DNA of 64,000 nt from an uncultured SAR86 cluster bacterium. Its GTDB lineage: Bacteria; Pseudomonadota; Gammaproteobacteria; Magnimaribacterales; AG-339-G14. Under the pieces are notes generated by a model. It saw only the letters and a program-made list of their open reading frames with translations. It made no database searches and had not been told where the DNA came from. Below, piece after piece: positions 3,983 through 6,302 of the stretch. Both the position numbers and the translations under genes were made by a program. The stretch is taken from positions 98,318 to 162,317 of the forward strand of contig CACPMT010000004.1 in NCBI GenBank assembly GCA_902635045.1. The letters run 5' to 3'. The stretch's first letter is position 1. Each line of letters begins with the position of its first letter.

Positions 3983-4843
3983 TTACTCAAATTCTTTTTC
4001 ATTCCACCATGGAAAAAAACTTGGCATATCTTTTGAAACTTTTCCTGGAAAAGAAGGTGAGCGTTTTTCAAGAAAGGATGTAACACCTTCAACTGCTTCT
4101 CCTGATTGACCTAGTTCGAAAATTGCTCTTGAGTCAACTTTATGTGCTTCCATAGGATCATCTGCACCAAGCATTCGCCACATCATTTGCCTTGTAAGCG
4201 CTATAGAGATTTGTGAGCTCTCTGCGGTAAATTCTTTAGCAATTTCCAGAGCTCTTTCTATTAATTTCTCTTGCGGCAATACTTCAGAAACCAAGTTAAT
4301 TTCTTTAGCCTCTTCGGCTGAAATAACTTTTCCCGTGTAACATAACTCAAGGGCTTTATCGATACCAATTAATCTTGGAAGAAACCAACTCGATGCTGCC
4401 TCTGGGACAATACCTCGTCTCGCAAAAACAAAACCAAACCGAGCTCGATCGGAACAAATCCTAGTATCCATTGGCAGCAACATAGTTGCTCCTATTCCTA
4501 CGGCAGCTCCATTAACAGCAGCAATCAGTGGCTTTTTGGATTTAAAAAGTCTTAAGGTAAGAAGCCCTCCGGAATCTCTTACGACATTATTTGTTCTCTT
4601 TCTGCCTTTTCTATTATCAAAAGTATCACCTCCAGATGATAAATCTGCTCCTGCGCAATAAGCTTTTCCGTCCCCAGTAAATATGATTGCCTTTATGTCA
4701 TCGTTTTGCTCTGCATCGTCTAAAACTTTGACAATTTCTTGTTGCATAGATAGAGTGAAAGCATTCATTCTTTCTTCTCTTGATAGATAAATCACCAAAG
4801 AATTGTCTCTTACCTCAGTGCGAACTGTTTCTAAATTATTCAT
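3983..4843 (-). CDS. Enoyl-CoA hydratase/isomerase family protein
   Basis: Crotonase-fold protein of 286 residues, likely hydrating a trans-2-enoyl-CoA or catalysing a related acyl-CoA reaction. The CAGADLSSG segment and the NGAAVGIGATMLL segment form the two halves of the expected oxyanion hole. It is first in a minus-strand run followed 2 bases later by the acyl-CoA carboxyltransferase, so co-transcription is likely. The start ATG at 4843 lies just beside the divergent metY promoter and riboswitch region. The reaction beyond the fold is inferred. Confidence 0.88.
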   Translation of the reverse strand: MNNLETVRTEVRDNSLVIYLSREERMNAFTLSMQQEIVKVLDDAEQNDDIKAIIFTGDGKAYCAGADLSSGGDTFDNRKGRKRTNNVVRDSGGLLTLRLFKSKKPLIAAVNGAAVGIGATMLLPMDTRICSDRARFGFVFARRGIVPEAASSWFLPRLIGIDKALELCYTGKVISAEEAKEINLVSEVLPQEKLIERALEIAKEFTAESSQISIALTRQMMWRMLGADDPMEAHKVDSRAIFELGQSGEAVEGVTSFLEKRSPSFPGKVSKDMPSFFPWWNEKEFE

Positions 4844-4850
4844 AAAATAG

Positions 4851-4880
4851 TTGATAATTATAAATTAATTTGGTTTTATA
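4851..4880 (+). promoter_or_regulatory. Putative sigma-70 promoter of metY
   Basis: A TTGATA hexamer at 4851-4856 and a TTTATA hexamer at 4875-4880 are separated by 18 bases. Transcription from this pair would begin near 4886, exactly at the 5' strand of stem P1 of the SAM-II aptamer. The agreement between predicted start and aptamer edge supports the call; the hexamers alone are weak in this AT-rich DNA. Confidence 0.5.
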
Positions 4881-4884
4881 TACC

Positions 4885-4936
4885 TAGCGTTGATTTATCT
4901 GACTTGCAAACGCTTTATAAATTTTGCTAAACAAGA
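4885..4936 (+). promoter_or_regulatory. SAM-II (SAM-alpha) riboswitch aptamer upstream of metY
   Basis: The leader aligns without gaps to the classical SAM-II aptamer as I recall it. Conserved blocks are TGATTTA (4891-4897), TTGCAA (4904-4909), ATAAAT (4917-4922) and GCTAAA (4926-4931). Stem P1 is AGCGT 4886-4890 with ACGCT 4910-4914. TCT 4898-4900 can pair with AGA 4934-4936 as a pseudoknot segment, with a C-G to U-A covariation against the remembered sequence. The gene downstream is an O-acetylhomoserine sulfhydrylase, a standard SAM-II target. The ribosome binding site lies beyond a terminator hairpin, so control is probably by transcription termination. Confidence 0.9.
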
Positions 4937-4944
4937 CTTTTAAG

Positions 4945-4977
4945 ACCTGTTTAGCGAAAGCAAACAGGTTTTTTTAT
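4945..4977 (+). terminator. Intrinsic terminator, expression platform of the SAM-II riboswitch
   Basis: ACCTGTTT (4945-4952) pairs with AAACAGGT (4962-4969). The top of the hairpin is GC-GAAA-GC with one bulged A at 4953, and a T run follows at 4969-4975. The 5' half of this stem, 4949-4959, can instead pair over 11 positions (one G-U) with 4922-4932, the 3' part of the SAM-II aptamer containing GCTAAA. Terminator and antiterminator are therefore mutually exclusive, which makes this the expression platform rather than the end of another gene. Confidence 0.9.
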
Positions 4978-4997
4978 TTTAAGTTAAAGGAGAAAAA

Positions 4998-6302
4998 ATG
5001 GCTTACGAAGGGAAAAATTTAGAAACTATCGCGCTTCATGCGGGGTGGAGGAATGATGAAAACACAGGTTCTGTAGCAGTTCCAATTCATCAAACAACGA
5101 GTTATCAATTTAATGACACTGCGCACGCAGCGAGTCTTTTTGGTTTGCAGGAGTTTGGAAATATTTATACCCGAATAATGAATCCAACTTGTGATGTTCT
5201 TGAGCAAAGAATGGCTGCATTGGACGGAGGAGCAGCAGGACTTGCAGTTGCTTCAGGACAAACAGCATCTGCATATTCGATTCAAAATTTGGCTAGAGCA
5301 GGAGATAACATTGTTTCTTCTTCTCACTTATATGGCGGAACATATAATCAATTCAAAAACAATTTGAAAGAGATGGGTATAGAAGTGAGATTTGTTGATC
5401 CCACTGACCCAGAAAATTTTGAGAAGGCAACCGATGATAAAACAAGAGCTTATTTTGCTGAAACATTGCCAAATCCAAAACTTCATGTTTTTCCTATCTC
5501 TGAGGTAGCAGAAATTGGAAGAAAACATGATATTCCTTTAATTGTTGATAATACTGCAGCGCCAGTCCTGTGCAGGCCTTTTGATCATGGTGCTGCTATT
5601 ACTACTTATTCAACTACTAAGTACATTGGCGGTCATGGAACTACTATTGGTGGCTTGATTGTGGATGGCGGTAATTTTGATTGGGGCAAAGCAGGTGCTG
5701 ATAGGCAGCCAGCTATGAATACTCCAGATCCTTGTTATGGTGGAGTAGTCTGGGATGAACAAGTCACAAAAAATATGGGGCTTCCTTTTGCCTATTTGCT
5801 TAAATTAAGGACTACCTTGTTAAGAGATTTAGGTGGCGCTATGAGTCCTTTCAATGCTTGGATGTTCATTCAAGGACTGGAAACTTTACCGTTGAGAATG
5901 AGAGAACATGCAAAAAATGCTCAAGCAGTTGCTGAAGCTCTCGCAGCCAATAAAAAAGTACAATCGGTAACTTACCCGGGACTATTTGAAGGAGCTGAAA
6001 AAGAAAAGGCTGATAAATATATGACTGGTGGTTACGGTGCCTTAATAGGTTTTGAATTACCAGGTGGAAAAGAAGCTGGTAGTAAGTTTATTGACTCTTT
6101 GGAGCTTCTGTATCACGTTGCCAATATTGGAGATTCAAGATCCTTAGCCATTCATCCTGCAACTACAACGCATAGTCAATTGGCTCCAGAAGAACAACTC
6201 TCTGCTGGTGTGACACCTGGCTATGTCAGATTATCTATTGGAATTGAAAATGTTGAAGATATTATTGCCGATATTAATCAAGCAATAGATAAAGCTAGTT
6301 AA
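4998..6302 (+). CDS. metY: O-acetylhomoserine sulfhydrylase (aminocarboxypropyltransferase)
   Basis: PLP-dependent Cys/Met metabolism enzyme of 434 residues that makes homocysteine from O-acetyl-L-homoserine and sulfide. The length and sequence style match MetY rather than the roughly 390-residue MetB/MetC group. The PLP lysine is Lys208 in YSTTKYIGGHG; ASGQTA and VDNTAAP supply other cofactor contacts. A strong AAAGGAG ribosome binding site lies at 4986-4992. The gene sits alone behind a SAM-II riboswitch and terminator, so it should be switched off when SAM is abundant, and it is closed by a terminator at 6315-6344. Confidence 0.94.
   Translation: MAYEGKNLETIALHAGWRNDENTGSVAVPIHQTTSYQFNDTAHAASLFGLQEFGNIYTRIMNPTCDVLEQRMAALDGGAAGLAVASGQTASAYSIQNLARAGDNIVSSSHLYGGTYNQFKNNLKEMGIEVRFVDPTDPENFEKATDDKTRAYFAETLPNPKLHVFPISEVAEIGRKHDIPLIVDNTAAPVLCRPFDHGAAITTYSTTKYIGGHGTTIGGLIVDGGNFDWGKAGADRQPAMNTPDPCYGGVVWDEQVTKNMGLPFAYLLKLRTTLLRDLGGAMSPFNAWMFIQGLETLPLRMREHAKNAQAVAEALAANKKVQSVTYPGLFEGAEKEKADKYMTGGYGALIGFELPGGKEAGSKFIDSLELLYHVANIGDSRSLAIHPATTTHSQLAPEEQLSAGVTPGYVRLSIGIENVEDIIADINQAIDKAS

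Follow-up and report, generated by a model that had tools for sequence, protein, structure and literature searches.

The window analysed here, a 64,000-nucleotide stretch of DNA from a SAR86 cluster bacterium of a kind common in the ocean, carries metY, whose product scores 603.2 bits against TIGR01326 (cut-off 495.1). Upstream of it on the same strand lies a SAM-II aptamer of the RF00521 (SAM_alpha) family, followed by an intrinsic terminator hairpin; the ATG of metY stands 22 nt past the terminator (Table 1). The reading frame on the far side of the leader is divergent and runs away from it, so the terminator is not its own.

Table 1. Features of the metY leader and its flanks (window positions)
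Feature	Position	Strand	Basis
Divergent upstream reading frame, 286 aa	3983-4843	-	ORF list
SAM-II aptamer (RF00521)	4886-4936	+	cmscan of 4840-5010
P1 helix	4886-4891 with 4909-4914	+	cmscan alignment, covariation in 67 leaders
Core strands inside P1	4892-4896 (GAUUU), 4904-4907 (UUGC)	+	cmscan alignment
P2a, pseudoknot extension	4898-4900 (UCU) with 4934-4936 (AGA)	+	pair conservation in 67 leaders
GCUAAA, 3' strand of pseudoknot P2b (with UUGC 4904-4907) and 5' strand of predicted antiterminator	4926-4931	+	cmscan
Predicted antiterminator	4922-4932 with 4949-4959	+	sequence, repeat finder, 67 leaders, folding
Intrinsic terminator	4945-4955 with 4960-4969; A4953 bulged; loop 4956-4959; U run 4969-4975	+	folding, relatives
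Shine-Dalgarno-like AAAGGAG	4986-4992	+	sequence
metY, O-acetylhomoserine aminocarboxypropyltransferase family, 434 aa	4998-6302	+	TIGR01326

A preliminary description, made from the sequence alone, had proposed a gapless SAM-II match at 4885-4936 and suggested a covariance-model scan as the check. In cmscan of the 171 nt around the leader, RF00521 aligns to 4877-4951 of the forward strand over the whole model (1-79) with 29.9 bits and E 2.3e-5, which is significant though below the Rfam gathering score of 36. The aptamer thus stands, but the match is not gapless: the alignment contains a four-base gap in a loop that is shorter in the window than in the model. RF01726 (SAM-II long loop) overlaps the same place with 21.6 bits and E 0.035. 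Apart from the score and the shorter loop, the window shares with the Rfam family P1, the P2 pseudoknot, the GAUUU, UUGC and GCUAAA strands, the position ahead of a methionine-synthesis gene (metY) and a terminator after P2. P1 encloses the conserved core and covaries among relatives, and the pseudoknot (UUGC with GCUAA) is accompanied by P2a, with the P2b evidence partly due to selection and the third P2a pair weak.

The gathering score is the curators' listing rule rather than a property of the RNA. Because the leader falls under it, a gathering-threshold Rfam scan of the whole window reports three tRNAs and no SAM-II, and a permissive scan was needed. In the genome of origin (88.5% complete), the window site is the best RF00521 match (E 3.6e-5) and the sole one at E<=1e-3; the next has E 0.0127. 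Two weaker candidates in the same genome (L002 and L003, E 0.013 and 0.038) are without the SAM-II core and were taken as chance. SAM-II and SAM-V are both described from SAR11 (PMC2704228, as far as its accessible text goes); no SAM-V family is among the 14 matches at E up to 5 in 4840-5010, so the leader holds no tandem SAM-II/SAM-V. A search of the genome of origin for SAM-I/IV found none.

The 10-bp terminator hairpin and T run of the preliminary description were recovered at 4945-4975, with a GAAA loop, seven T and a folding energy of -13.6 kcal/mol alone. Leaders of relatives show the same kind of hairpin. A simple terminator scan has no entry at the leader, perhaps because of the bulge. 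The proposed 11-nt complement also holds, as 11 pairs with one G-U, and a repeat finder stretches it to 4922-4939/4942-4959 at 83%; in relatives, shuffles rarely match it. The leader therefore has the arrangement of an intrinsic-terminator attenuator: a hairpin and U run, with one arm of the hairpin able to pair instead in a competing helix. A third proposal, that the promoter start coincides with P1, was not confirmed by a promoter scan, which has no forward-strand site there. Start sites just before P1 are usual for SAM-II in the available text of Corbino et al. (2005; PMC1273637), which also reports many putative intrinsic terminators.

Folding transcripts of increasing length gives the antiterminator a pair probability of 0.998-0.999 at ends from 4955 to 4967; the terminator reaches 0.825 at end 4969 and 0.988 at 4971. 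When each state is forced, the terminator has -21.3 and the antiterminator -17.8 kcal/mol, so equilibrium favours the terminator in a program that models neither the pseudoknot nor SAM. Read-through would thus need a kinetic advantage of the antiterminator, and on this model the outcome without ligand would depend on the speed of strand exchange. Taken as a whole, 4880-4998 does not fold unusually stably (z -1.45; 17/200 shuffles as good).

Leaders of SAR86 relatives were taken from 30 loci of the order scan, 100 stretches around listed matches (a subset) and the named metY loci. The 104 core-bearing leaders with a run of six T reduce to 76 distinct ones, 67 of which have a hairpin of -9 kcal/mol or better; the nine dropped at this threshold are all rows of alignment A1, which collects a variant described below. 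Another alignment of 16 leaders (A2), in which the L199 row has wrong coordinates and some rows are cut, contributes to none of the counts. Selection demanded UUGC and GCUAAA, so the constancy of these motifs, including the pairing of UUGC with GC(U)AA in 67/67 leaders, is partly built in. Each of the six P1 pairs is kept in 60 to 67 of the 67 leaders, with both-sided changes at four. When the P1 partners are slid by -1, +1 or +2, two to three pairs often form and the others do not. The inner P2a pairs are kept in 56/67 and 65/67 leaders, with a C-G to U-A exchange, and the outermost in 23/67.

Of the antiterminator pairs, the six with GCUAAA (pairs 1-6) can form in 67, 65, 67, 63, 61 and 57 of the 67 leaders, and pairs 7-10 in 52, 66, 52 and 58; pairs 7 and 9 fail in 15/67 each. 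Summed over pairs, 608/670 cells form, compared with 342/670 when the strands are slid by +1, 191/603 by -1 and 219/670 by +2; at +1, five pairs still form in 58-65 rows, where A and U runs match. The mean energy of the duplex is -11.9 kcal/mol, and that of dinucleotide shuffles -4.2. The observed value is reached by no more than one of 100 shuffles in 53/67 leaders and by no more than five in 61/67. Covariation in this helix, which the preliminary description had suggested looking for, is slight: the complement is mostly kept, but the aptamer strand is invariant, and both partners have changed at only one pair in ten. The contrary case it had named, a terminator kept while complementarity to GCUAAA is lost, is found only in part. 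L186 and L201, which lie ahead of an OmpW gene and not metY, keep the terminator and lose 2/6 GCUAAA pairs (14 and 8 of 100 shuffles do as well), and four further leaders have weak duplexes (L169, L073, L170 and L029, with 15, 20, 6 and 6).

The two terminator arms differ in how far they vary. The 5' arm reads UUUAGC in 45/67 and UUAGC in 53/67 leaders. In the 66 leaders that could be parsed (all except L073), the 3'-arm pentamers are GCTGG 21, GCAAA 13, ACAAG 9, GCAGA 5, GCAAG 5, GCTGA 4, GTTGG 3, GCTAA 3, AGCTG 2 and TTGGC 1, of which AGCTG and TTGGC stem from arms shifted by a base. Even with the 5' side constant as CCTG-TTTAGC, seven forms of the facing 3' arm occur. There is drift in the 5' arm too, which has nine hexamer forms once three rows with a misread 5' arm (L185, L021 and L038) are set aside. 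The stem is usually bulged on its 5' side. The terminator requires only that its arms match each other; a match between the 5' arm and GCUAAA matters only for an antiterminator, and the constancy of the 5' arm supports the antiterminator for that reason. The evidence from sequence comparison is thus unequal constraint and not covariation, in statistics that ignore the relatedness of the leaders.

Conservation among relatives and folding by length agree with the switch ahead of metY that the preliminary description put forward, and very probably the leader is a SAM-II riboswitch that attenuates metY transcription and is OFF with SAM. When SAM is low, the nascent GCUAAA strand would pair with 4949-4959 as this segment emerges from RNA polymerase; with the terminator's 5' arm occupied by the antiterminator, transcription would continue into metY. 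When SAM is high, GCUAA would be locked with UUGC in the P2 pseudoknot, leaving the 5' arm free, so that the 4945-4969 hairpin could form at the U run and stop transcription. With the aptamer family, its helices, their mutual exclusion by sequence, their conservation and the in silico folding order in hand, we infer SAM as the ligand, termination in the cell and the direction of control.

An alternative is control of translation, in which the aptamer would mask the ribosome binding site and the hairpin would be incidental. Compact SAM-II switches of this type are described in the accessible part of Scheuer et al. (2022; PMC9373788). In addition, eleven SAR86 metY leaders of family f2 (L016, L114, L134, L137, L140, L148, L150-L152, L156 and L159) have no hairpin with a six-T run in the sequence inspected, so the terminator platform is not universal in the order. 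Against this, AAAGGAG sits 54 nt after GCUAAA in the window, beyond a strong hairpin and U run. A run of at least six T also follows the aptamer in 36/36 of the metY loci nearest the window (L039-L071, L093, L094 and L097; 29 titled SAR86 and seven 'Gammaproteobacteria bacterium'), with the hairpin visible in the leaders inspected. We consider control of translation improbable for the window. Slightly less probable again is a constitutive attenuator whose decayed aptamer no longer binds SAM. The score below the gathering threshold is what such decay would give, but the core strands are intact, 14/203 genomes of the order do pass the gathering score, and P1 and P2a covary within SAR86, which decay would not produce. 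Least probable is an aptamer for a related metabolite such as SAH, given core strands that match the SAM-II model and a downstream gene that serves methionine synthesis.

The preliminary description regarded such a switch as unusual in a gammaproteobacterium-like genome, a view that the genome scans do not support. At E<=1e-3, RF00521 matches 112/203 genomes of the order and 118/369 sampled genomes of the class, of which 14 and 30, respectively, pass the gathering score; the class sample includes four genomes of the window's own order, its own genome among them. The family is found in 58/299 genomes of the phylum sample and in 0/14 control genomes. The Rfam gathering score therefore misses most SAM-II RNAs of the order, with only 14 of the 112 matching genomes passing. 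Given their frequency in the class sample, neither SAM-II nor the terminator platform sets the window apart.

Many of the class leaders examined have a terminator of this design. A UUU[AG]GC arm is present in four of the ten best class matches (L218, L220, L221 and L223). We also fetched the 40 class matches next in rank, leaving out genome repeats and G518, G415, G406 and G526; the core is present in 39 of these leaders and a hairpin with T run in 30. Among those 30, the duplex is -9 or better in 26 and the 5' arm is UUU[AG]G[CU] in 22. At most 2/200 shuffles reach the observed duplex in 18/30 and at most 10/200 in 22/30, in leaders that are richer in G+C. The gammaproteobacterial set (L215-L224 and L255-L294) resembles the window in having GCUAAA followed by a terminator with this arm, and differs in that most of the first residues downstream do not, by eye, look like those of the window metY. 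Three of its members (L267, L285 and L294) carry SAM-II before a frame beginning TSESVSEGHPDK, which we take to be the start of a SAM synthetase.

The window leader is accordingly a further example of a known design and, as a mechanism, nothing new in kind. In the text available to us, Barrick and Breaker (2007; PMC2258182) already list SAM-II for alphaproteobacteria, gammaproteobacteria and Bacteroidetes, tying it to terminators most often in alpha- and betaproteobacteria. SAM_alpha was found only in Rhizobiales and Rhodobacterales by Leyn et al. (2014; PMC4239095), with metY as a core target; the portion available does not name metK as a target of SAM_alpha. The Sinorhizobium meliloti metZ leader, studied with metA by Scheuer et al. 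(2022), is comparable with the window in that it too precedes a gene of methionine synthesis and is predicted to terminate transcription intrinsically in response to SAM; it comes from another organism and is likened here by description and not by sequence. In the open-licence literature we found no earlier report of SAM-II in SAR86, without claiming that none exists; the accessible main text of a paper on SAR86 (PMC11582366) does not contain the word 'riboswitch'.

The gene and its leader point to different relatives. metY is 93-100% identical in 25 named loci (L039-L062 and L097), of which 23 bear the title SAR86 cluster and the other two that of Gammaproteobacteria bacterium. A maximum-likelihood tree of 59 MetY rows places the 14 SAR86 rows in one group (100/97) that joins six PS1-like rows (100/99). 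Both nest in a set (100/100) whose other rows are titled alphaproteobacteria, in one case Proteobacteria, or come from genomes outside the class, and six other gammaproteobacterial rows lie apart. Because the tree is midpoint-rooted and its rows were chosen from best matches, the direction of MetY transfer can only be inferred. The PS1-like leaders (L072, L074-L081, L092 and L100; titled PS1 clade, OCS116, Rhodobiaceae, Hyphomicrobiales or alphaproteobacteria) precede the closest metY outside SAR86 and have a SAM-II core and T run in 11/11 cases. Unlike the window leader, 5/5 of those tested pass the gathering score, and their hairpin differs from the window's.

In comparisons where some rows are mis-cut (for example L255), the window aptamer has a mean identity of 62% (best 73%) to gammaproteobacterial aptamers, 56% (best 58%) to those of six PS1-like leaders and 60% (best 66%) to those of the alphaproteobacterial metY leaders L226, L227 and L229. 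Transfer of metY together with its leader from a PS1-like donor was considered and is not favoured; the MetY tree fits transfer, but the aptamer is closer to gammaproteobacterial ones. By sequence comparison, then, the window MetY groups with alphaproteobacterial MetY under an aptamer nearer to gammaproteobacterial ones, which is modestly new. Gene and leader may have different histories, a suggestion drawn from about 55 bases. Separately, a contig titled Gemmatimonadales (L073) carries a SAR86-like metY (80%) with a SAM-II leader and is perhaps mislabelled or from a mixed bin.

The order also contains a SAM-II-like variant with the core ATCGTGATTTGATCCTATTGC..GCTAAAACGGAA..TTCCCAGGATTTAA and no terminator, seen only in SAR86 in these samples. 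Alignment A1 holds 58 elements (57 distinct rows, among them L107-L110, L112, L113, L115, L129, L164, L187 and L191) that share this core and a conserved 3' extension; the elements were picked by the core pattern, so constancy of the core is partly built in. The extension forms a GGAA..UUCC hairpin followed by AGGAU, which is complementary to the loop AUCCU. Pairing in P1 holds for 98.6% of cells, and two of its pairs have changed on both sides; for P2a the figure is 98.2%, without any such pair. AUCCU can pair with AGGAU in 93.3%, one pair having changed on both sides. At its GG-CC base the hairpin is intact in 100%, and over the following two pairs in 84.5%. Each structure does better than slid versions of itself; in the case of the alternative structure, 40/500 shuffles have an equal number of both-sided pairs.

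A model built for the variant finds 63/203 genomes of the order and 1/369 of the class, with no match in the genome of the window at E<=1. The sole class match outside the order (L214) scores 37.2 bits with RF00521, above gathering, and was not counted as a variant. Genes behind representative elements encode homocysteine S-methyltransferase (L115 and L129), metH (L112), a fatty acid desaturase (L108), a TonB plug protein (L121, and L183 for its cluster), a thioredoxin-like protein (L168) and carbonic anhydrase (L113); a family search of the lipoprotein-like gene behind L192 returned none. Two variant copies stand in tandem before one gene in L108 (210-396), where that gene is the desaturase, and in L110 (201-383).

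We put forward only tentatively a wider reading in which much of the methionine economy of SAR86 would rest on SAM-II RNAs that fall under the Rfam cut-off, in two designs. One would be the terminator switch. The other would be the terminator-less variant ahead of genes for metH, homocysteine methyltransferase, desaturase and TonB receptors; there the loop AUCCU could pair either with CGGA or with the AGGAU further downstream, giving two mutually exclusive pseudoknots. The metY of the window would be of alphaproteobacterial origin, with a leader of the gammaproteobacterial subtype in front of it.

Two further arrangements were seen among the SAR86 loci. A SAM-II leader with terminator precedes a gene for an AhpC/TSA peroxiredoxin, an unexpected target (L163 in G150, element L163_1994, frame 1298-1966). 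In L106 (201-380), and also in L174, L178, L184, L186 and L201, a SAM-II element is followed by a SAM-I/IV riboswitch (RF01725, above the gathering score); the genes behind form one cluster, whose scanned member is of the OmpW family. Tandems of SAM-II with SAM-I/IV have already been reported, according to the accessible text of PMC9481103.
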